Assembly (NCBI RefSeq): GCF_011043775.1
Contig: NZ_JAAKXY010000004.1
Location: 62,001-126,000, forward strand
Length of the DNA: 64,000 nt
Reading direction: 5' to 3'
Source of the DNA: Natronolimnobius sp. AArcel1
GTDB taxonomy: Archaea; Halobacteriota; Halobacteria; Halobacteriales; Natrialbaceae
This document shows, one piece after another, positions 1,144-16,905 of the stretch. The notes under the pieces are model-generated. The model had not been told where the DNA came from. It saw only the letters and a list, made by a program, of their open reading frames with translations, and did no database searches. Each line of letters opens with the position of its first letter. The stretch's first letter is position 1. A program made the position numbers and the translations under genes.

Positions 1144-2898
1144 ATGGGAGACAATAACAATCGAGACCAGCCGCGATCGACAGTCGGCCGGCGAACGCTG
1201 TTGTCGGCAGGAGCAACCCTTGGCGCACTCACCGTTGCCGGTTGCTCCTTTGGCGGCACCGAGAACGCACAGGCACTTCCCGACCAGCCAACTGCCGACG
1301 ACGGCACGGTCGCCTACCAGTACTTCCACGCCGAGTGGACAGAGATTGAGGCCGACGTACCCCGCCTCGCCGACGCCGGCATCGACGCCATCTGGGTGCA
1401 ACAACCTGCTCGAGGAAAGCTCGGCTGGGACGACCTCTCGTACGACGGCGAATACGGCTACTACGATGAGACCTCACCCTACGGCTTTCGTGACCCGCAT
1501 CCACCGGTTGGCTACCAACCTGTCGACCTCTCCGATCTCGACTCGACGTTCGGCACGGCGGACGAACTCGAGTCCATGATCGAGGCCTGCCACGCACACG
1601 ATATCGAGGTCATCGTCGACGTGGTCGCGAATCACATGGCGACGGCAGACGGGCCGGATGGGGAGGTGGAACTCCCGCAGTTCGACCGCGACGAGCACTT
1701 CCACGACAACGGCACGCTCGGCGAGGACTGCCAACTCGACGGCGAGGAAGCCGAGTACGAGTGTGATTTGCTCGGGTTGCCCTCGTTCGACCTCGAGAAC
1801 TCACACGTACAGGACGTACATGCTGACTACCTCGGGCAGATCGCCGACTTGGGCGCTGACGGCCTGCGATACGATGCGGCGGGCCACATCTGGCCGTGGT
1901 ACTTCGAGTCCGAGCTCAACGCGCTGGCGGACGACCTCGACCTCTGGCGCGTCGGTGAAGTCTGGGACTACGACGTGGAGCGACTGCTCGAGTTCGCCGA
2001 CACGGGCATGACGGTCTTTGACTTCCCGCTGTACGACGCCATCGTCGACGCCTTCGAGGGCGGCAGTATGGCCGAACTTTCACAGGACGCCGCCCGCGGT
2101 GTGGTCCACGAACGCCCCGAGGCAGCGGTGACGTTCGTCCAGAACCACGACACCGTCGGTCCGGGTGTCGACGAAGACGAACCCGAGGGCCGCGCGGTCG
2201 AACTTGCCGAGGCGTTCGTCCTCACCTACGCCGGGCTGCCGATGGTGTATCGCTCCGGCCCCGAAAACCGCTCCGAACTCGAGGATGAGGCGTTCCACGA
2301 CCTCGTTGCCGTCTCTCAGGAGTTCGCCCACGGTGAGGTGATCGACCGCCATGTCGACGACGATAGCTACGTGTACGAACGCGATGGGAACCTGCTGGCA
2401 GGCATCAATACGGACGAACAGGCCGTAACCCACACCGTCCAGACTGCCTGGACCAATGAGACACTGGTCGATCAGACCGGCCACGGCGATGGCGTCGAGA
2501 CCGACGGCGATGGACAGGCAACGCTCGAGATTCCGGCCGAAGGCTGGGTGATGTACACACCTGGCGAGCCAGACGATGGGGACGACAACGGAGACGATGA
2601 CGACGAAGACGACACTGGCGACACCGAGGAACGCACACTCCGCGTCACCGTCGACGTCGAGTACGGTGAATCGGTCTACTTCACGGGGAACACGGCCGAA
2701 CTGACTGAGTGGAACGGCGGGATCGAAGGCACCTGGACCGAGGGCAACGTCTGGGAAGTCACCGTCGACGCCGACGACGACCTCGAGTGGAAGACCCGTC
2801 GCGGCCCTACTGACGACACGGGTGACGTGTGGGAACGCGGCGAGAACCACACCGCGGCAGAGACGCACCCGACCCATCAGGGGTGGGAAGACGAGTAA
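1144..2898 (+). CDS. Secreted GH13 alpha-amylase, Tat lipoprotein with C-terminal starch-binding domain
   Basis: Hydrolyses alpha-1,4-glucan links of starch-like polymers outside the cell. The 584-residue protein starts with a twin-arginine signal (GRRTLLSAG) ending in a lipobox (TVAGC), so it is probably exported folded and lipid-anchored. The GH13 regions are in order: DVVANH (D159), GLRYDAAGH with nucleophile D244, GEVW with acid/base E272, and FVQNHDT with D336. A low-complexity D/E-rich linker (about residues 475-495) leads to a C-terminal module (about 497-584) with the CBM20-like VYFTGNTAELTEWN pattern. It stands alone between proS and a Nudix gene. Exact specificity (alpha-amylase or maltogenic type) cannot be read from sequence alone. 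Confidence 0.9.
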   Translation: MGDNNNRDQPRSTVGRRTLLSAGATLGALTVAGCSFGGTENAQALPDQPTADDGTVAYQYFHAEWTEIEADVPRLADAGIDAIWVQQPARGKLGWDDLSYDGEYGYYDETSPYGFRDPHPPVGYQPVDLSDLDSTFGTADELESMIEACHAHDIEVIVDVVANHMATADGPDGEVELPQFDRDEHFHDNGTLGEDCQLDGEEAEYECDLLGLPSFDLENSHVQDVHADYLGQIADLGADGLRYDAAGHIWPWYFESELNALADDLDLWRVGEVWDYDVERLLEFADTGMTVFDFPLYDAIVDAFEGGSMAELSQDAARGVVHERPEAAVTFVQNHDTVGPGVDEDEPEGRAVELAEAFVLTYAGLPMVYRSGPENRSELEDEAFHDLVAVSQEFAHGEVIDRHVDDDSYVYERDGNLLAGINTDEQAVTHTVQTAWTNETLVDQTGHGDGVETDGDGQATLEIPAEGWVMYTPGEPDDGDDNGDDDDEDDTGDTEERTLRVTVDVEYGESVYFTGNTAELTEWNGGIEGTWTEGNVWEVTVDADDDLEWKTRRGPTDDTGDVWERGENHTAAETHPTHQGWEDE

Positions 2899-3546: not shown

Positions 3547-6500
3547 TCAGTCCTCCTCTAACGCCCGCGACTCGAGGCCGGAGGGAGCGCCGTACTCGTC
3601 GGGTGCACAGCCAAGTGAGCGATGCGGGCAGTGTTGGCAGTGTGGCCCGGGCTCTGTCTCGAGACTCGGATCGTCGACGGCGGTGAGCGTCTCGCGGACG
3701 GCCGTCCACGCGGGCAGTTCGTCGGGATCGAACAGCACCACGCGCGGCCCGTCCCCCTCGCCGACGTAGACGTAGCCGACTGCAGCGACCGGCTCGTCGA
3801 AGCGCTGCTCGCAGGCTCGAGCGTATAGCGAAAGCTGGACCGCGTCCGGGAGAGCGATTCGGTCGGCGGTCGCCTTGTAGTCGAGGACGGCGAGCCCGCC
3901 CGCCCACTGCGTGGCCTGTTCGTCGGTCGCGTTCGCCTCGGATGGCAGCCGGCGAATCGAGTCAATATAGCCGATGACGTCGCCGTCGACGCCGTCGACC
4001 GCCGACAGCGAGAACGGCACCTCCGCCGCGAGGTGGTCCCAGTCCGAAACTGGCTGTTCGAAGCCGGGTGCGTCCGCCTCGAAGTAGCGCTCGATACACG
4101 CACAGACGGCCTCGCGATGCTCGAGCAGATCCCGCGCGGTGAGGTGGCGAACAGCAGCATCCTCCCAGGCCGACTGCGTGTGATAGTCGCGATAGAACGC
4201 CTCCTCGGCGACATCGTGGAAGACGGTGCCAACGAGTCTGGAGTCGCCGCTCGAGTGGCGCTCAGAGTCCTCCGAACCGGTCAGCGAACGTGCCTGCGGA
4301 TCGTCGAGTGCGCGCACGACGTGGTCGAGATAGTGCTTGCGCGGACAGCTCTCGTAGGTGTCCATCGCGCTGTAACTGTGACGCATCGCCACGGGGAGTT
4401 CGGTCGCACTCGAGAGTGCCTCGACCGGGAAGCGGACGGTGTCGGGCGACAGCGCACCAGCGCGGCGGCCGTACGGCAGGGCGTTCTCGAGGCTGGGCTC
4501 ATCGCCGTAGCTGGCCGCATCCGCTGCTGGCAGTAGGGTTCCAGAGCGCAGGAGTCGCCCGAGTTCGTGGACGGTTTCGATTGCATCACGAGTCTCGAGC
4601 GGTTCGACCGTGCGGTCGTCGTAGTCGGCGTAGTAGGTGATCGAACCCGGCGTCACGTCGGCGGCGTGTGCGAGGTCGTCCGTCCGGTCGACGACGGTGT
4701 CGGGGTAGGTCGCCCGAACCCGCTCGAAGCTTGCAGACAGCGACGCCCACAGATCCATGCGCTGGCCGGCGGTCGACCACTCGATGTCGCCAGCGAGGCA
4801 GGCATCCGCCTGCGAGACGCCCAGTTCCGTCTCGTCGCCGTCGTACTCGTAGCCGGAGCCGAAGACGAACAGATGGTTCTCCGCACGCGTCAACGCGACG
4901 TGGAGCACGCGCCACTCCTCGGCGACCGTCTCGCTCGCGAGGTCGGCACACAGCGGCGAGTCGATATCGTCTGCGAGTGTCGCCGCGAGCAGCCGCTCTC
5001 GAGCCCGTCTGGCGTAGTCGCCGTCGACACACCACTCCTCATCCGAGAGGTAGGGGACGAGCACCGTATCGAACTCGAGGCCCTTCGCTTGGTGGACGGT
5101 CATCACATCCACGGAGTCACTCGATTGGGTGCCGCGAGTCCGCTCGCTGCCGCCCCCGCGAAGTGCCGCCTCGAGCGCGTCGACGAATGACGGCGTGAGT
5201 GTACTGACGACAGAATCGGGATCATAGGCTTCGACGAATCGGTCGAGTCGGTCGAGTTGGGCGCGCTCGTCGCTCGTGAGGAACCACTCGAGACGCGTCA
5301 GGTCGCGGAATCGGCGGATGAACCCCGACAGCGGGTAGACGTTCCGTAGTCGCTCGAGGGATGCGAGGTGTTCGCGCGCCTGCTCGAGTTGGGCTGGATT
5401 CTCGAGGGTCTCAGGCTCGATATCGAAGACCGCATCGTAGAGCGATCCATCCCGGCGTTGAAGCGTCTGGAGGTCAGCGTCGCCGAGTCGGTAGCGATAG
5501 AGCAACACTCGCCGAAGGTGGGCGTCGGCGTCGCGGTCGACGAGCACGCGGAGATACGACAGCAGCGTCTGGATGCCGGGCGAAATCTCCCCGCGTGGCG
5601 AGCCCGAAATCTCGTAGGGGATCTGACGCTCGCGCAACTCCTCGGCGATGGACTGGGCATGGCGATTGGTGCGGACGATCACCGCGAGATCTTCGAGATC
5701 ACGCTGTGGGACGTTCTCGGCAGCGCCGTTGAGCAGCCTCGAGACGGCCGTCCCGACTTGGGTCGCCGTCGACTCGGGAATCTCGTCGCTTTCGATTTTG
5801 ACGACGCGGTCGGCGCGGTTGTCCTCGGCCGCATATTCGCCAGCCTCGCGTCCAACCTCGCGCAGCGTTTTCGAGGACTGCGGGCCGTACTCACAGTGAT
5901 TCGTCAGATCGAGGATTTCCTGGCGCGACCGGAAGTTGAGTTCGAGCGCAATCGCCTCGTGGTCGTCGTACTGTGTCTCGAGGCGGTCCAGCCCCTCGCG
6001 GTCGGTGCCACGCCAGCCGTAGATCGCCTGATCCTTGTCGCCGATGGCGAGCAGATTCGGCCGGTCCGAGCCGCTTGTTAGTTCGGTAATCAACGAAAAC
6101 TGCGTCTCGTCGGTGTCCTGAAACTCGTCGCAATAGACTTGCGTCCACTGGCCGGTGATTTCCGCTGCAATCGCGTCGTCCTCGAGCAGGTCGGTTGCCG
6201 TCCGCACCAGTTCGTCGAAATCGAGCGCTCGCTGTTCCTCGAGGGCGTCGTGATAGTCCGCATACACCGCCGCGTAGTGGCGAGCGAGTCGAAGGAACTC
6301 GACGTAGTGTTTCAGTCGGCCGAATGGGCTTTGCTCGAGGCGGTTCGTCTGCTGTCGCCAGATTTCGTTGCCAAACAGCGCCCGCGGGAGCTGTTTCGTC
6401 GTCGAGTCCTCGAGTGAGAGCGCCTCGATGGTGTTTGTCACACACTGCTGGAGCACTCGAAGATACCGAGTTACGTCGTCGACAACCGCATCCTCGCGGA

Positions 6501-7227
6501 ACGCCTCCGGCGACTCTGCGACTTTCTCGCGGCAGTACTCGAGGAGTTTGCCGTAGCCGACGAGTGCCTCCTGGGCCGACTCAAGGTGGCTATCCTGTGA
6601 GAAGAATCGAAGCGCTTCGTTGTCGAACGAGAGGTCGCCGGCCCGCTGCTCGAGCCAGAGGACGAACTCGGTACAGAGTTCGATTGTTCGCACGTCGGGT
6701 AGGCCCTCCTCGAGATGCGCCGGTGTCACGTCCTCCTGGCTCATCGTCCGGATGAAGTCATCAACGGCGCTCGTGAGGTCCGTCCTCGAGCCGTCGTGTG
6801 CCGTCGCGGCCGCGAAGTCGTAGTCGGTCGTCGCGAGGAGGCGGCCGACGATTCGGCGGCGTTTGCGCTCGGTGACGACGTCGAACTCCGGCGAGTAGCC
6901 GAGGTAGTAGGCGTACTCGCGGACGAGGCGATGGCAGAACGAGTGGTAGGTGTAGACGTCGATAGCCGCCGCAGCCTCGGGGTCGAGTCGCTCGGCGACG
7001 GCATCGCGGATGCTGCCTGCGGCCTCGTTCGCGAACGTTAATACGAGGATATCGTCCGGTTCGACCGCGCCAGACTCGATTGCATGCTCGATGCGCAACA
7101 GCATCGTCGTCGTCTTGCCGGTGCCGGCTCCCGCATCGACCGAGATACAGGCCGCCTCGCTCTCGATGACCGCCGGTTGGTTTCCTTTCGGCTCGAGGGT
7201 CGTCTCTGGCTCGCGTGAGTCACCCAT
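3547..7227 (-). CDS. AddA/RecB-like SF1 helicase fused to Fe-S PD-(D/E)XK nuclease
   Basis: Probable motor and nuclease subunit of a double-strand-break end-resection complex. Start chosen at ATG 7227 (MGDSREPE), which overlaps the upstream stop by 8 nt; a longer frame reaches 7302 but runs inside the previous gene. The 1226-residue protein has helicase motifs: Q motif GNQPAVI, Walker A GAGTGKTT (33-40), LTFANEAAG, Walker B DEFQDT (D367/E368), LNFRS, VMTVHQAKGLEF (from 708) and VALTRA. The C-terminal nuclease has D1089 and DYK (D1116, K1118), framed by C961 and C1197/C1200/C1207, the pattern of an AddB/Cas4-type 4Fe-4S staple. In bacterial AddAB that staple sits on AddB, so subunit roles appear redistributed. 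Last gene of a three-gene operon. Confidence 0.88.
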   Translation of the reverse strand: MGDSREPETTLEPKGNQPAVIESEAACISVDAGAGTGKTTTMLLRIEHAIESGAVEPDDILVLTFANEAAGSIRDAVAERLDPEAAAAIDVYTYHSFCHRLVREYAYYLGYSPEFDVVTERKRRRIVGRLLATTDYDFAAATAHDGSRTDLTSAVDDFIRTMSQEDVTPAHLEEGLPDVRTIELCTEFVLWLEQRAGDLSFDNEALRFFSQDSHLESAQEALVGYGKLLEYCREKVAESPEAFREDAVVDDVTRYLRVLQQCVTNTIEALSLEDSTTKQLPRALFGNEIWRQQTNRLEQSPFGRLKHYVEFLRLARHYAAVYADYHDALEEQRALDFDELVRTATDLLEDDAIAAEITGQWTQVYCDEFQDTDETQFSLITELTSGSDRPNLLAIGDKDQAIYGWRGTDREGLDRLETQYDDHEAIALELNFRSRQEILDLTNHCEYGPQSSKTLREVGREAGEYAAEDNRADRVVKIESDEIPESTATQVGTAVSRLLNGAAENVPQRDLEDLAVIVRTNRHAQSIAEELRERQIPYEISGSPRGEISPGIQTLLSYLRVLVDRDADAHLRRVLLYRYRLGDADLQTLQRRDGSLYDAVFDIEPETLENPAQLEQAREHLASLERLRNVYPLSGFIRRFRDLTRLEWFLTSDERAQLDRLDRFVEAYDPDSVVSTLTPSFVDALEAALRGGGSERTRGTQSSDSVDVMTVHQAKGLEFDTVLVPYLSDEEWCVDGDYARRARERLLAATLADDIDSPLCADLASETVAEEWRVLHVALTRAENHLFVFGSGYEYDGDETELGVSQADACLAGDIEWSTAGQRMDLWASLSASFERVRATYPDTVVDRTDDLAHAADVTPGSITYYADYDDRTVEPLETRDAIETVHELGRLLRSGTLLPAADAASYGDEPSLENALPYGRRAGALSPDTVRFPVEALSSATELPVAMRHSYSAMDTYESCPRKHYLDHVVRALDDPQARSLTGSEDSERHSSGDSRLVGTVFHDVAEEAFYRDYHTQSAWEDAAVRHLTARDLLEHREAVCACIERYFEADAPGFEQPVSDWDHLAAEVPFSLSAVDGVDGDVIGYIDSIRRLPSEANATDEQATQWAGGLAVLDYKATADRIALPDAVQLSLYARACEQRFDEPVAAVGYVYVGEGDGPRVVLFDPDELPAWTAVRETLTAVDDPSLETEPGPHCQHCPHRSLGCAPDEYGAPSGLESRALEED

Positions 7228-8296
7228 CGAATCGCACCTCCTCAGCGATGTACTCCTGACAGCAGACGGTGTAGGCACAGTCCGGGCAGGACTCACTCGC
7301 AATGCGATCCCAGCGGTCGGACGGGTCGAACGCGCCCGAAGCGATTCGGCTGGCGAGCGACTCGAGGCGACTATCGACAGTCGTGTTTCGGTGTTCGAGT
7401 GTCATGCCGAAGGTGTGATGATCGACGTAGGCATCGGTGAGGTCGACCGGCTCGAGGCTCGTTTCGACCGTTTCGCGCACCCAGTTGACCGACGTGTGCT
7501 CGCGGTCGGCGAGTGGAATCTGGACGTAGCGACAGGTTCGGTCCTCGAGACCGAGTCGGTCACACAGCGAGCGCAGTCCGGCGAGGACGACGCTGGTTTC
7601 GAACAGGGCACCGATTGGGTCGGGTTCGAACGTCTCCATTTCGGGGTCGAAGTGATCGACGAACGATTCGGCGACGCGCTCCCAGTCGTCGCGATAGCGC
7701 AGGAAGCCAAGCGGGCGCACTGACGGGACGAACCGGACGCCGACGACCGACGAACCATCGCCAAAGACGTAGTCGACGCTCGCCTCGAGCGTGGCCGTCT
7801 CCTCCGATTCCTCGCCGATGGAAACCGAACTCGAGAGCGTGAGATCCGGGCCGACGAGGTCTGCGAGCGGGTCATTTTCCTGATCGTCAGCGGCGGCGAG
7901 CACCTGACGCAGGCCGGCGGCATGAGCGGGGCCGACAGCCTCGACGTAGGCGTCGACCGTAGCCTCGAGCACCTGCCGTTCGTGGCGGCGCTGTGCGCGT
8001 GAGTGAAATCGTTCGTCGTGGCGCTCCCAGCGCGTCGCGAGTGCCTCGAGCGCGCGGTCGGCAAGTGCCTCCTGTTCGATCTCGCCTGTGTGCCGGGTAG
8101 TCTGCTCGAGCGTCGTACAGAGCGCTCGCCGGAGAAGGGCGACGCGCTCGTCGGGGCCGTCGTCGTCGCTGTCGTCGAAGCCGTGGACGTGGGCGAACTC
8201 GTACCGGCGGGGACAGTGGATATACGTGCGAAGGCCGTCGGCAGACAGCGTGACCGGCGTGGTTCCATCACCATCCGAGTCTGCATTTTCACTCAT
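7220..8296 (-). CDS. Fe-S PD-(D/E)XK family protein, catalytic motif probably lost
   Basis: A 358-residue protein between the two helicase-like genes, with 8-nt overlaps on both sides (start ATG 8296, MSENADSDG). It begins and ends with cysteine motifs of an AddB/Cas4-like Fe-S nuclease fold: HCPRRYEF (C28) and C337-x2-C340-x5-C346 near the C-terminus. The central region has the aspartate of motif II (LEASVDYVF), but the expected (D/E)xK strand reads VVGVRFVPS, so the metal-binding and lysine residues look absent. It may therefore be a structural or DNA-recognition subunit rather than a nuclease, as inactivated nuclease domains are in RecC. Function is inferred from fold motifs and operon context. 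An in-frame extension upstream lies wholly inside the preceding gene and is not used. Confidence 0.75.
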   Translation of the reverse strand: MSENADSDGDGTTPVTLSADGLRTYIHCPRRYEFAHVHGFDDSDDDGPDERVALLRRALCTTLEQTTRHTGEIEQEALADRALEALATRWERHDERFHSRAQRRHERQVLEATVDAYVEAVGPAHAAGLRQVLAAADDQENDPLADLVGPDLTLSSSVSIGEESEETATLEASVDYVFGDGSSVVGVRFVPSVRPLGFLRYRDDWERVAESFVDHFDPEMETFEPDPIGALFETSVVLAGLRSLCDRLGLEDRTCRYVQIPLADREHTSVNWVRETVETSLEPVDLTDAYVDHHTFGMTLEHRNTTVDSRLESLASRIASGAFDPSDRWDRIASESCPDCAYTVCCQEYIAEEVRFDG

Positions 8297-10592
8297 TCCG
8301 GACCACCTCCCCGGACGCGAACTCGAACTGGGACCGTACTGCGTCCGCAAGGTCGTCGTCGATATCGCCTGCCTCGAGGACGACGGCGATCTCCTCGAAC
8401 AACTCCTCCGTTTCGGCCAGATCGGCGTTCCCACCCGTACTCGCCTCCCGAAGGACGCGCTCGAGTTCGGCACGCGGCTGATCAAGCAGCGTCTCGAGGG
8501 CGTTCGTCTTCCCGTGAATCGCGGCACCCGTGTGGGCGTCGACAGCCTCGAAATCGATTCCCGGCGTCGACTCGAGGAGTTTGAGATAGCGTGATTCGTC
8601 GTAGGTTCGACGCAGGCCGCCAGCCCCGCGTTCGTACGAACAGCAGTACAGGTGTCTCGTCGCCGCACGGGTTCCAAGCGCGAGTCGTCGCCGCGTCCGC
8701 TGGGCGTGATACGTCTCGAAGGGATCACCAGCGGTTCGATCCGCGACTGGCGTTGGCTGGCCATCCTCGAGCGGGCCGAACGTCGATTCGATGGTGTCTG
8801 CGTCGGGTGCGGTGACCGCCGGGTAGGCCTCCAGTTCGCGGAGCCACGCGGTCGGGAACAGCTGTGTGAGAAACTGCTCGCCCGGATACGTGGTGTCGAT
8901 CAGATCCAGCAGGAAGACCGTCTCGTAGGTGTCGTATTTGAGGTCATCGAGTGGACAGACGGTCACCCCGCCGGTCGGCGGCTGTGTCTCGACGGCGTGG
9001 ACGTAGGGCGCGTCGTACTGGATCGTCCGGCGCAGCATCCGATTCAACCCATCCCAGTCCGGGCCAACGAGGTCGGTCTCCTCGACGAACGCTGCAATCT
9101 CGAGGACGCGGCGCACACTGGCGTACTGCTCGCGGGCGTCGACCCAGTCCTCAGTCGCGGCGATACGGCCTTTCAGATCGGTGCGGACGATCCACTCTGC
9201 CAGCGACTGGGAGACGCTCGAAGAGGTACAGTCCTCGAGCAGCGTCGGCGAAAACTCGGGCACACGAGCACGAAGGCGCTCGAGCGAGGTGGTGTAGCGC
9301 TGACTCGAGTGGTCGTGGTGCTGTTCTTTATCCTTGAGTTCGGGACCGCCTCGAGCGCGCTCGCGCTGGACGGTGACGAAGGCGTAGAGTTCGTTTACGG
9401 CCGGGTCCTCCGCGAGCGACGGCGTGCCAATCGTCGCCGTCGGAACGCCAGCGTCGCGAAGCCGCCGTCGCGTCTCGGGCACGCGTTCGATTCCGGGGAC
9501 CGCAACCGCGAACGCGTCGAATCCCCAGTCGTGGCGACCCGCAAGCGACTGGATCTCTGTCGCGACCGCCCGAACCTGTTCGCGGGACGTTCCAGCCCGA
9601 ATGCGACGCGCTCGAGCGAGCGAGTCCGTGTCCCCATTGGCTGTGTCGGATGGCGTCGCCTCTGCTTCGCCCGCCGCCGACGCCGACCCCGTCGCGAGCA
9701 GTTTCGTCATTTCGCGATGGGGTGGCTCGAGACTCGGCCCGGTGTCGCCGAGTTCGTCTGGCTCGAGCAGGTTGACCTCGAGATCCGGGCCAACGTGGTC
9801 GTCGATTCGCCCCGGCTCGACGCGCGTTCGCTCGACGCTCGCATGGTGCTCGCCGAAACAGACGAGTTCGGCATCGCTGGAAATTGCCGTGAGATATCGG
9901 CGGTCAAGCTGGCGGTATTCCTCGAACTCGACTGCAAGTACCGCGTCGTAGGACGACGTGACTCGATCCTGCAGGTCGTCGGCGTTATCCTCGAGCAACT
10001 CGACTGCCTGGGGAACCACGTCAGCACGCTCGACGTAGCCACGATTTTCGAGTTCTGCGTGAAACCGGTCGTTCATCGCGTACAGAAACTCAAGACACTC
10101 GCGTGGCTCACTGGGACCCGTCGGGGACGCTTCGTCCTCGAGGCCGGCGAGTCGAATCCGCTGGCGTGTCGCCTCGAGCAGCAGTTGCCCCACATCACGG
10201 GCGAAACTCTCGTGGGTCGCCGCCCGCTCGAGATACGCGGGCACGTCACGACTCGCGCCGTCGATCACCAGCGAAATCAGTTCGATTCGCTCTTCGTACT
10301 CGAGGCGGTCGAGCGTCGGATCGTACTCCTCGAGCGTCTTCGAGGCGTGTTCGGGCAGCGACTCGAGGCGTGGCGACTGAGGCGTGCCGTCGGTCAATTC
10401 GACGGCTGCAAGCGCCTCCCGAAGGGACTCGAGTCCCGACGGATGGCGCTTGAGCACCAGCACGTTTCGCGGGCCGTACTCGGCGGCCAGATCAGCATAT
10501 CGGCGCGCGACTGCCTCGCAAAGCGCTGGTCCCGGAACGGGTTCAGTAAGGAGCGTGCAGGTCCCATCGAGACTGCCAGTCGGAGGCGACAT
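8289..10592 (-). CDS. AddB/RecC-like protein, degenerate SF1 helicase fold
   Basis: A 767-residue protein, first gene of the resection operon (start ATG 10592). No Walker A lysine motif is visible near the N-terminus, where an active helicase would have one. Degenerate counterparts of later helicase motifs can be seen: a motif V-like stretch (VCPLDDLKYDTYETVFLLDL) and a motif VI-like stretch (RRRLALGTRAATRHLYCC). This matches the role of AddB and RecC, which keep the helicase fold but do not use ATP and instead guide the strand to the nuclease. It is transcribed divergently from a CBS-domain gene. Alternative: a very diverged active helicase; absence of the P-loop argues against that. Confidence 0.7.
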   Translation of the reverse strand: MSPPTGSLDGTCTLLTEPVPGPALCEAVARRYADLAAEYGPRNVLVLKRHPSGLESLREALAAVELTDGTPQSPRLESLPEHASKTLEEYDPTLDRLEYEERIELISLVIDGASRDVPAYLERAATHESFARDVGQLLLEATRQRIRLAGLEDEASPTGPSEPRECLEFLYAMNDRFHAELENRGYVERADVVPQAVELLEDNADDLQDRVTSSYDAVLAVEFEEYRQLDRRYLTAISSDAELVCFGEHHASVERTRVEPGRIDDHVGPDLEVNLLEPDELGDTGPSLEPPHREMTKLLATGSASAAGEAEATPSDTANGDTDSLARARRIRAGTSREQVRAVATEIQSLAGRHDWGFDAFAVAVPGIERVPETRRRLRDAGVPTATIGTPSLAEDPAVNELYAFVTVQRERARGGPELKDKEQHHDHSSQRYTTSLERLRARVPEFSPTLLEDCTSSSVSQSLAEWIVRTDLKGRIAATEDWVDAREQYASVRRVLEIAAFVEETDLVGPDWDGLNRMLRRTIQYDAPYVHAVETQPPTGGVTVCPLDDLKYDTYETVFLLDLIDTTYPGEQFLTQLFPTAWLRELEAYPAVTAPDADTIESTFGPLEDGQPTPVADRTAGDPFETYHAQRTRRRLALGTRAATRHLYCCSYERGAGGLRRTYDESRYLKLLESTPGIDFEAVDAHTGAAIHGKTNALETLLDQPRAELERVLREASTGGNADLAETEELFEEIAVVLEAGDIDDDLADAVRSQFEFASGEVVRNE

Positions 10593-14299: not shown

Positions 14300-15406
14300 T
14301 CAGCGACTTCGCGTTCCAAGTGTCAACGACTCGGTCGTCTCGCTCCCGTCGCGCCAGAGGCTGATCTCGACCGTCTCGTCGGGGCTGGTCTCGAGTGCGA
14401 GATGTGTCGCGAGTGCGTGTCGGTCCGGGATCGGTTCGCCATCGATTTCGAAGATGACGTCGCCGCCAACGGGGATCGGTTCGCCGCGGCGTTCGACGGT
14501 GCTCGTCGCTCCTTCCAAGACGCCGTCTGCTGGGCCGCCTGAGACGATGTCGGTAACGGCGACTCCGGTGGCCGCCTCGAGGCCGTTCTCCTCGGCGACG
14601 ATCCGATCAACCGAGAGCAGGCCAATCCCCAGATAGGAGTGATCGTACTCGCCGTCGTCGATCAACGTGGGAACAACGCGGTCGGCCAGCGCCGCCGAGA
14701 TGGCAAAGCCGATGTTGTTACCGCCGCCTGCGTGGACGACGCCGACGACGTTGCCATCGAGGTCGACGAGCGGGCCGCCACTGTTGCCTGGGTTGACCGC
14801 GGCATCCGTCTGGACCACATCGGGGAACGAAAACTGGCGATCGGGTGCGTTGACCGAACGCTCAATTCCACTGACAATTCCCTTGGACATCGACCCCTCG
14901 AGACCGTAGGGATTCCCGATTGCGAGCACTTCCTGGCCGACAACGGGGCGTTCGTCGGAGAGCGAGAGTGGAGTTGCATCGTCGGGGGCGTGGTCGACCT
15001 CGAGGACGGCGAGGTCGCTGAAGTAGTCGGTTCCGACGAGGCGGGTGCCGGTCCAGTCGCCGTTGATGTACTGGAGGTCGACTTCTTCGCCGTCGGCGAC
15101 GACGTGGTCGTTCGTGACGAGGTGGTTCTCGTCGTAGAGAAAGCCCGAGCCCTGCCCGCGGCCTTCATCGTCGGTCAAGGGATCGCTTACGCCGAAGACG
15201 CGGACCTGTGTGACGGAGTCGATTATCGACTCGTAGACCTCGGTGAAGGATGACCCGTCTGCGGTGTTGTCGCGGTCAATATCGCGTGTAGGGCCGCCTT
15301 CGATCGAACTGGTTCCGCTGGGCGCGGAACAGCCAGCAACAGCGCCGACGAGACCGGCACCTGTCGCTGCGAGAACCCGGCGCCGGGTTGGTCGATCGTC
15401 GTTCAT
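14300..15406 (-). CDS. HtrA/DegP-like serine protease, Tat lipoprotein with PDZ domain
   Basis: Trypsin-fold protease on the outer face of the membrane, probably for quality control of exported proteins. Start chosen at ATG 15406, giving a Tat motif (PTRRRVLAATG) and lipobox (AVAGC, C26); the frame upstream of it is open but unrelated. The catalytic triad is visible: H101 (TNDHVV), D131 (SDLAVLEVD) and S209 (GNSGGPL). A PDZ-like domain follows (about 270-360: YLGIGLLSVD, GGPADG, GGDVIFEIDGEPI). The 368 residues fit the single-PDZ HtrA architecture. It is divergent from pus10. Confidence 0.92.
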   Translation of the reverse strand: MNDDRPTRRRVLAATGAGLVGAVAGCSAPSGTSSIEGGPTRDIDRDNTADGSSFTEVYESIIDSVTQVRVFGVSDPLTDDEGRGQGSGFLYDENHLVTNDHVVADGEEVDLQYINGDWTGTRLVGTDYFSDLAVLEVDHAPDDATPLSLSDERPVVGQEVLAIGNPYGLEGSMSKGIVSGIERSVNAPDRQFSFPDVVQTDAAVNPGNSGGPLVDLDGNVVGVVHAGGGNNIGFAISAALADRVVPTLIDDGEYDHSYLGIGLLSVDRIVAEENGLEAATGVAVTDIVSGGPADGVLEGATSTVERRGEPIPVGGDVIFEIDGEPIPDRHALATHLALETSPDETVEISLWRDGSETTESLTLGTRSR

Positions 15407-15549
15407 AGCTGACCGGTAGGACCCCACCCATTTGAACACCGGGGAGACCCGACTGGGCTCGAGTATAGTTGTGACCAACTGCCATGTTGACGGCGAGCGA
15501 ACGAATGGAAGGGAAAACGTGTTACCCACGGCACCCCGATGCTCGAGGT

Positions 15550-16905
15550 ATGACTACGGACGACGCCCGCGCGCTGCTCGCGACCGGGTCGATCTGTGAC
15601 TCCTGTCTCGGCCGCCCCTTCGCCGAGCGGAGTTTCGGACTGACGAACGCCGAGCGCGGCCGGGCGCTGCGAACCACGATTGCACTCGAAGACGACACCG
15701 ACTTCGACCCCACGCCCCCAGCGGAGTGTTGGGTCTGTGACGGCTACTGTGACACCTACGATGCCATCGCCGACACCATCGTCGACGCACTCGAGGGTGT
15801 CGAGTTTGCGACCTATCAGGTCGGCACGCGCGTGCCACCATTGGCCGAGGAAAACGAACGGCTCCTGCGCGAAGACGCCGGTCTCGAGCCAGATGTTGGC
15901 GAGTCGTTCAAACGCGAATTCAATCGCGAAGTCGGCCGCCGCGTCGGCGCAAAAACAGGCACGGACGTCGACTTCGACCGCCCGGACGTGCTCGCGATCA
16001 TCGACCTCGAAGCGTTTGACCCGCTCGAGGCGGCCGACAACGACTCGGTGACGAGCCACGCGGTCGACGTCCAGATCAATCCGGCGTTCGTCTACGGGCG
16101 CTACCGCAAACTCGAGCGCGATATTCCCCAGACGGAGTGGCCCTGCCGGGAGTGTGGCGGCAGTGGCGTCCAACTCGGCGACTCAGGCGAGGAACCCTGC
16201 GACTACTGCGGTGGCTCGGGCTATTTGTACGACACCAGCGTCGAACAGGTCGTCCGCCCGCACGTCGTCGAAGCAATGGACGGTGACGAAGGCAAATTCC
16301 ACGGTGCGGGCCGCGAAGACGTCGACGCCCGCATGCTCGAGACCGGCCGGCCGTTCGTCCTCGAGGTCAAACGGCCGAACCGACGCGATCCCGATCCCGA
16401 AACGCTCGAGCAGGAGATCAACGAGGCCGCTGCTGGGTCGGTCGAAGTCGATGGCCTCCGGCTGGCAACGTACGACATGGTCGAACGCGTCAAAGAACAC
16501 GACGCAAGCAAGCAGTATCGCGCCGATGTCGAGTTCGCCGAGCCACTCGAGGAGGAGACGTTCAAAACAGCACTCGCGGAACTCGAGGGGACGACTGTCG
16601 AGCAGGACACCCCACAGCGTGTCGATCACCGACGAGCGAGTCTCACCCGCACGCGGACGGTCTACGATATTGGTGGCGAGTTGCTCGAGCCGACTGAAGC
16701 AGAGGTGTCCGTCCACGGCGAGGGCGGTCTCTATATCAAGGAACTCATCAGCAGCGATGAGGGGCGCACGGAGCCAAGCCTCGCTGGGCTGGTCGAGACG
16801 GACGCCGAAGTGACCGCACTCGACGTCACCCGTGTCGAAGGCGAGGACGAACCGTTCGAACTCGAGGAGTTCTTCCTCGACGAACCCCGAGACAGCGACG
16901 AGTAA
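15550..16905 (+). CDS. pus10: tRNA pseudouridine(54/55) synthase Pus10
   Basis: Makes pseudouridine 54 and/or 55 in the T-loop of archaeal tRNA. Start set at ATG 15550 (MTTDDARALL); the frame is open upstream to 15484. The 451 residues contain an N-terminal cysteine-bearing accessory domain (C16, C19; later CWVCDGYC), the Pus10 YGRYRKLERDIPQT block, a second zinc-ribbon-like insert (CRECGGSG...CDYCGGSG), and the catalytic region GREDVDARML, where D257 aligns with the Asp of TruA-type R-x-D motifs. Its product is the substrate of TrmY, encoded nearby. The next gene in the same direction is rnhB. Confidence 0.93.
   Translation: MTTDDARALLATGSICDSCLGRPFAERSFGLTNAERGRALRTTIALEDDTDFDPTPPAECWVCDGYCDTYDAIADTIVDALEGVEFATYQVGTRVPPLAEENERLLREDAGLEPDVGESFKREFNREVGRRVGAKTGTDVDFDRPDVLAIIDLEAFDPLEAADNDSVTSHAVDVQINPAFVYGRYRKLERDIPQTEWPCRECGGSGVQLGDSGEEPCDYCGGSGYLYDTSVEQVVRPHVVEAMDGDEGKFHGAGREDVDARMLETGRPFVLEVKRPNRRDPDPETLEQEINEAAAGSVEVDGLRLATYDMVERVKEHDASKQYRADVEFAEPLEEETFKTALAELEGTTVEQDTPQRVDHRRASLTRTRTVYDIGGELLEPTEAEVSVHGEGGLYIKELISSDEGRTEPSLAGLVETDAEVTALDVTRVEGEDEPFELEEFFLDEPRDSDE

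Follow-up and report, generated by a model that had tools for sequence, protein, structure and literature searches.

Three adjacent genes, here called A, B and C, lie in the 64,000-nt stretch of Natronolimnobius sp. AArcel1 DNA that was analysed (the window; Table 1). They very probably form an operon for a helicase-nuclease of the AddAB/AdnAB type in which two separate proteins make up the AddB subunit. As A matches AddB residues 2–768 and B residues 785–1138, the cut falls between residues 768 and 785, and with A and B as the halves of one AddB the three chains would make up two functional subunits. The preliminary description of this DNA had proposed an AddAB/RecBCD-like helicase-nuclease operon, which is borne out by the tiling of AddB by A and B and by the motor-nuclease architecture of C. 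It had further seen a three-subunit machine with two decayed partners. Three chains there are, but A and B are better read as one AddB cut in half than as two decayed subunits.

Table 1. Positions of the operon, of key residues of C and of other genes in the window
Feature	Position	Strand	Length	Description
Gene A	8289..10592	-	767 aa	Probable N-terminal part of AddB; SF1 helicase fold without ATP-binding motif
Gene B	7220..8296	-	358 aa	Probable C-terminal part of AddB; PD-(D/E)XK fold, Fe-S-type cysteines
Gene C	3547..7227	-	1226 aa	UvrD-type SF1 helicase and C-terminal PD-(D/E)XK nuclease, Fe-S-type cysteines
A/B overlap	8289-8296	-	8 nt	ATGAGTGA
B/C overlap	7220-7227	-	8 nt	ATGGGTGA
Walker A region of C	7110..7134	-		AGAGTGKT, residues 32-39; G33, G35, G37 and K38 invariant in 71/71
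Catalytic residues of the C nuclease	3874..3963	-		D1089 to D1116-x-K1118; invariant in 72/72
Cysteines of C	3607..3639	-		C1197, C1200 and C1207; invariant in 72/72
Fourth cysteine of C	4345-4347	-		C961; invariant in 72/72
Pus10 gene	15484-16902	+		tRNA pseudouridine synthase
HtrA-like gene	14303-15529	-		Trypsin-PDZ protein
Alpha-amylase-type gene	1144-2895	+		With starch-binding domain

Coordinates, strand, lengths and both 8-nt junctions of the three minus-strand genes were confirmed as originally described, and no error was found in the earlier residue list for genes A–C. A profile search of named genomes with gene A yielded 77 loci, in which A and B are separate genes throughout. A, B and C are contiguous and in constant order at 76 of them, the 77th being cut by a contig end inside B; co-conservation of the three genes in other haloarchaea, which had been set beforehand as a test, was thus observed. 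An A/B overlap of 8 nt was counted at 52 of the 77 loci and one of 4 nt at the other 25; for B/C, 48 of 76 loci overlap by 8 nt and a further 26 by 4 nt. Compared with the nearest relative, A has a dN/dS of ~0.21 and B one of ~0.12. The constant gene order, the short overlaps at nearly every locus and these low dN/dS values place the locus far beyond chance. Gene A found no match in phage records, and a phage origin of the locus was rejected on this ground. A tree of C splits the loci into two clades (SH-aLRT 96 and 99), of which clade I contains the window; its root is unsure owing to the quick method and the long outgroup branches.

The nearest relatives of the window's genome by sequence are Natrialbaceae. 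Among 116 Halobacteria genomes, A was found in 43, B in 42 and C in 44, the mismatches reflecting fragments of A (G065) and of C (G099, G103) and a distant C-like protein (G022); in G003, where candidates were scored only in part, C was possibly missed. The three-gene set is present in ~42 of the 116 genomes and missing from ~63% of them; each of the 26 complete genomes checked, that of the window among them, has NurA-family proteins. On this distribution and the presence of NurA, the operon was rejected as a general haloarchaeal substitute for RecBCD, a role that had been suggested for it. The NurA-family match in the window's genome lies at G000:C2:82651-83601, and a further one was obtained in the control Haloferax volcanii, although a review, in its accessible part, describes H. 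volcanii as lacking HerA and NurA (PMC7776575). The window's genome also encodes, elsewhere, a Dna2-like protein (L002, G000:C1:281675-285370), in which a Cas4-type nuclease with cysteines is followed by an SF1 helicase.

Since single-sequence searches were insufficient for A, giving nothing meaningful against Pfam, NCBIfam and PDB sequences, the protein was identified through a family profile and a structure model. Against the PDB, the profile placed B. subtilis AddB first (3u44_B, E 5.5e-9), followed by UvrD1 and AdnA, the latter with a modest E of 0.0025; within the family, Pfam ADDB_N was matched by 8 of 55 members and UvrD_C by 27 of 55. The AF2 model (pLDDT 83, pTM 0.85) aligns over residues 9–758 to AddB residues 2–768 (VIA-align, Z 22, 636 residues aligned). 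UvrD scores higher (Z 26), but this alignment is limited to the core and ends near residue 687. A also resembles the motor part of AdnA. The protein displays a motif II-like VEFEE (residues 221–225), a motif V-like VFLLDLIDTTYPG (residues 559–571) and a motif VI-like RTRRRLALGTRA (residues 632–643). At the position of motif I, a Walker A sequence is absent from all 78 homologues; the GAAIHGKT at residue 689 is a chance occurrence seen in the window's A protein only. The original view of A as an AddB/RecC-like protein devoid of Walker A thus agrees with the AddB matches of profile and model and with the 78 homologues.

For B, the sole single-sequence match among Pfam, NCBIfam and PDB sequences is Pfam PDDEXK_1 (E 1e-7), and its profile hit PDB sequences only by chance. 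The AF2 model (pLDDT 90, pTM 0.90) aligns to AddB residues 785–1138 (VIA-align, Z 15.8), to the AdnA nuclease (VIA-align, Z 15.4) and to ACE1, an Argonaute-associated Cas4 (PDB 9iac/9iab, Z 13.9). By model alignment, and for A also by profile, the two proteins hence match AddB and not unrelated families, which had been a further test of the reading. C28, C337, C340, C346 and D175 of B are invariant in 77/77 homologues. The (D/E)xK and H motifs are both lost in the window's protein, as they are in all B proteins of clade I. Fe-S cysteines without (D/E)xK are what had been reported for B. Twenty-eight of the 77 B proteins do contain (D/E)xK, and every one of them belongs to clade II, in which this motif is found in 28/28 and the H motif in 27/28 proteins. 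A nuclease-dead B, as initially claimed, is therefore correct for the window and clade I but not for the sister clade, where the active site is kept. Because the nucleases of AddB and AdnA work, loss in clade I is the simpler reading.

C possesses the complete SF1 motif set, including Walker A and DEFQD, with invariant helicase residues, and matches Pfam UvrD-helicase (E 4.7e-53), UvrD_C (E 9.7e-30) and PDDEXK_1 (E 6.3e-18). The nuclease residues H1004, D1089, D1116, K1118 and Q1131 are invariant in 72/72 homologues, and the Walker A count in Table 1 refers to the 71 homologues with letters at that position; the earlier assignment of all helicase motifs, a nuclease and four cysteines to C stands. 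Ranked against PDB sequences, the helicase matches PcrA, UvrD, AdnB, AddA and RecB in this order, and the nuclease profile finds AdnA and AdnB as best matches. Two observations count against an AddAB with a split AddB: the motor is nearer to UvrD/PcrA/AdnB than to AddA, and C has Fe-S-type cysteines whereas methanogen AddA-like ORFs show none. With four invariant cysteines on C besides those of B, both halves of the machine carry an Fe-S-type set. The set on the AddB side is in its normal place; what is unusual is the second set, on C. The proposed rearrangement of Fe-S parts accordingly applies to the extra set on C but not to B, whose set has not moved from the AddB position. In PADLOC, C matched GajB and DRT helicases over the helicase core only; this reflects general UvrD similarity, and membership in Gabija was rejected.

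As in AddAB and AdnAB, an active SF1A motor is joined to a PD-(D/E)XK nuclease (C), an SF1 fold without a working ATPase represents the second subunit (A), and Fe-S-type cysteines, one before and three after the nuclease core, are located on the AddB-type subunit (B). The likeness to B. subtilis AddAB covers the ATP-dead AddB-type helicase, the Fe-S PD-(D/E)XK domain that comes after it and the single active SF1 motor-nuclease, and extends to the tiling of AddB residues 2–1138 by A and B. AddAB in the strict sense differs, however: AddB is not a single polypeptide at any of the 77 loci but split in two genes, its nuclease is not competent in clade I including the window, and C departs from AddA in its motor and in its own cysteines. 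Loci of several methanogens, found with the profile of A, contain an unsplit AddB-like ORF (1026–1049 aa, nuclease from ~residue 710) adjoining an AddA-like ORF; in four such pairs (L143, L145, L146, L148), Fe-S-type cysteines are visible on the AddB-like member only. Similarity to mycobacterial AdnAB consists in the AdnA-like nuclease fold of B and in AdnB outranking AddA for the helicase of C. AdnA is nevertheless a single chain without an A/B split and has a competent nuclease, which is inactivated by mutating D934/D935. Clade I further shares with RecBCD the presence of one nuclease and a dead nuclease domain retained as structure, as in RecC, a resemblance that would be convergent loss. 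Yet the operon has one motor only and lacks a RecD-like SF1B second motor, and we know of no Fe-S site in RecC. ACE1 shares the fold of B but is one Cas4-family chain, and its PDB entries contain no helicase parts. A description of the three-gene unit as an AddAB-like system was not encountered in the largely open-access haloarchaeal and Argonaute-Cas4 (ACE1) literature covered by our search.

The layout of C, an SF1 helicase followed by an Fe-S-type Cas4-like nuclease, is identical to that of the UvrD-Cas4 fusion proteins described by Hudaiberdiev et al. 2017 (PMC5704561). It is highly improbable, however, that C acts alone as a helicase-nuclease of this kind, with A and B as accessory proteins comprising no AddB-like half. 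Fusions of similar size do stand alone in methanogens, and such proteins also do so in bacteria (PMC5704561), but C has two constant neighbours that tile AddB from end to end. In addition, A, B and C were not found intact apart from each other, save for the one genome in which C was possibly missed, and overlapping start-stop junctions are retained at nearly every locus. Still harder to credit is the idea that B is a decaying gene, kept merely through its position in the operon. The active site is gone throughout clade I, and at longer distances the divergence of B outpaces that of A and C; on the other hand, the dN/dS of B to its nearest relative is low, its four cysteines and D175 are invariant, and its structure is modelled with confidence.

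An AddAB-type machine with a split AddB may serve different purposes in the two clades. Clade I is chromosomal and consists almost entirely of Natrialbaceae, plus two long basal lineages, whereas in clade II short branches join different haloarchaeal families and the operon is also found on plasmids. Sixteen plasmid records from haloarchaea contain relatives of A, of which 15 span at least 80% of its length and most have clade II-like identity; one A-bearing plasmid has a VirB4-type gene nearby. Neighbours in clade I are mostly housekeeping genes (ProRS, UvrA, NUDIX, CBS, pterin-binding enzyme), and in the window a NUDIX gene lies downstream and a CBS-type gene upstream of the operon. Clade II neighbours include many defence genes, e.g. 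methyltransferases and pAgo (PADLOC) and Mrr and Eco57I (Pfam). They match 126 PADLOC families, as compared to 26 in clade I (from about equal numbers of neighbouring proteins, 97 and 100), although these counts derive from mechanical ORF calls and a family list with many overlapping models, and those of clade II depend on the 10-kb flanks and contig ends. Clade I thus probably functions in chromosomal repair. That it mainly degrades viral or plasmid DNA, like clade II, appears unlikely, even though its sister clade resides among defence genes and on plasmids, UvrD-Cas4 fusions have been proposed as defence components (PMC5704561), and the operon is dispensable, being missing in 4 of the 28 genomes of the window's family. 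Against this, housekeeping neighbours predominate, far fewer PADLOC families are matched than in clade II at similar protein numbers, and the clade is confined to Natrialbaceae bar the two basal lineages, with the operon in 24/28 genomes of the family.

A link to Argonaute belongs to the sister clade, as no Piwi-domain match was obtained in the window's own genome. In clade II, an Argonaute gene (888–895 aa) is located upstream of A in 8 of 29 loci, and at 7 of these 8 an intact PLD gene (agaP) lies behind ago and ends 5 nt before A; in Halocatena (L100), agaP is partial. Natronomonas LN261 (L089) contains a 126-aa agaP remnant at the usual agaP position, suggestive of a loss of ago-agaP at this locus. 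Piwi domains are encoded by 16 of the 116 genomes, in 5 of these beside the operon. The ago-agaP pair is known as the APAP system, and its authors saw a helicase encoded close to certain ago-agaP operons, according to the accessible passages of their paper, which contain no description of an AddAB nature of the adjacent unit (PMC11442185). UvrD-PD-(D/E)XK proteins in pAgo operons were recorded in an earlier survey (PMC6299218). The adjacent ago and agaP genes that define APAP are absent from the window's genome and present in part of clade II only.

The row divergent AAA ATPase-Argonaute-PLD (agaP)-A-B-C, in which agaP ends 5 nt before A, is seen at L092, L094, L095, L097, L104, L109 and L111 and on plasmid NZ_CP100464.1 (L149), in whose annotation the genes of the row are given as unrelated single proteins. 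Where Argonaute is missing in clade II, the AAA ATPase gene may stand directly upstream of A (L090, L102 and plasmid NZ_CP024045.1/L150); on the latter plasmid, pAArc1-01, C is followed by a tyrosyl-DNA phosphodiesterase-type gene and a DEAD/DEAH helicase gene. We offer as a tentative idea, somewhat unlikely as it stands, that the clade II set is a mobile private AddAB serving Argonaute-PLD immunity, by chopping DNA ends into single strands that become guides or by opening duplex targets, and that clade I is a repair form settled in the chromosome, which lost one nuclease and thereby went from AddAB to RecBCD logic.

Mechanistically, A, B and C would assemble into a 1:1:1 complex and load onto a double-stranded DNA end. 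C would pull one strand as an ATP-driven motor, for which the motifs are seen, with a presumed 3'-5' polarity as in the UvrD family. A, by its sequence and model a helicase fold predicted to be unable to bind ATP at motif I, would receive the 3' strand and might act as a passive scanner or brake. We know of no Chi-like sequence in haloarchaea; the analogy for A is with the N-terminal domains of AddB and RecC, where a dead helicase domain scans for Chi (PMC4824097). B, which has retained its Fe-S-type site but not its active site, may be the structural remainder of the AddB nuclease and close A onto C. The cysteine sets of both B and C probably bind Fe-S clusters. In clade I, the C-terminal nuclease of C would, by its motifs, be the only competent one and strand cutting would thus follow the one-nuclease logic of RecBCD; the enzyme would likely resect chromosomal breaks, leaving 3' tails on which RadA can act. 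The two intact nucleases of clade II could cut both strands according to AddAB logic, and the likely job would be to degrade or process invading DNA alongside defence genes.

End resection in haloarchaea has been described around Mre11-Rad50, and the accessible part of the main Haloferax review names no archaeal enzyme of the RecBCD type (PMC7776575). With an AddAB-type unit conserved in one lineage, haloarchaeal end resection becomes testable by deletion. For most prokaryotic Argonautes, the origin of the guides 'broadly remains to be understood' (PMC12904381), and a concrete candidate for guide supply is the helicase-nuclease whose genes directly follow ago-agaP. Finally, the two clades allow a natural comparison between a machine with one working nuclease and its counterpart with two, of relevance to the origin of RecBCD from AddAB-like ancestors.
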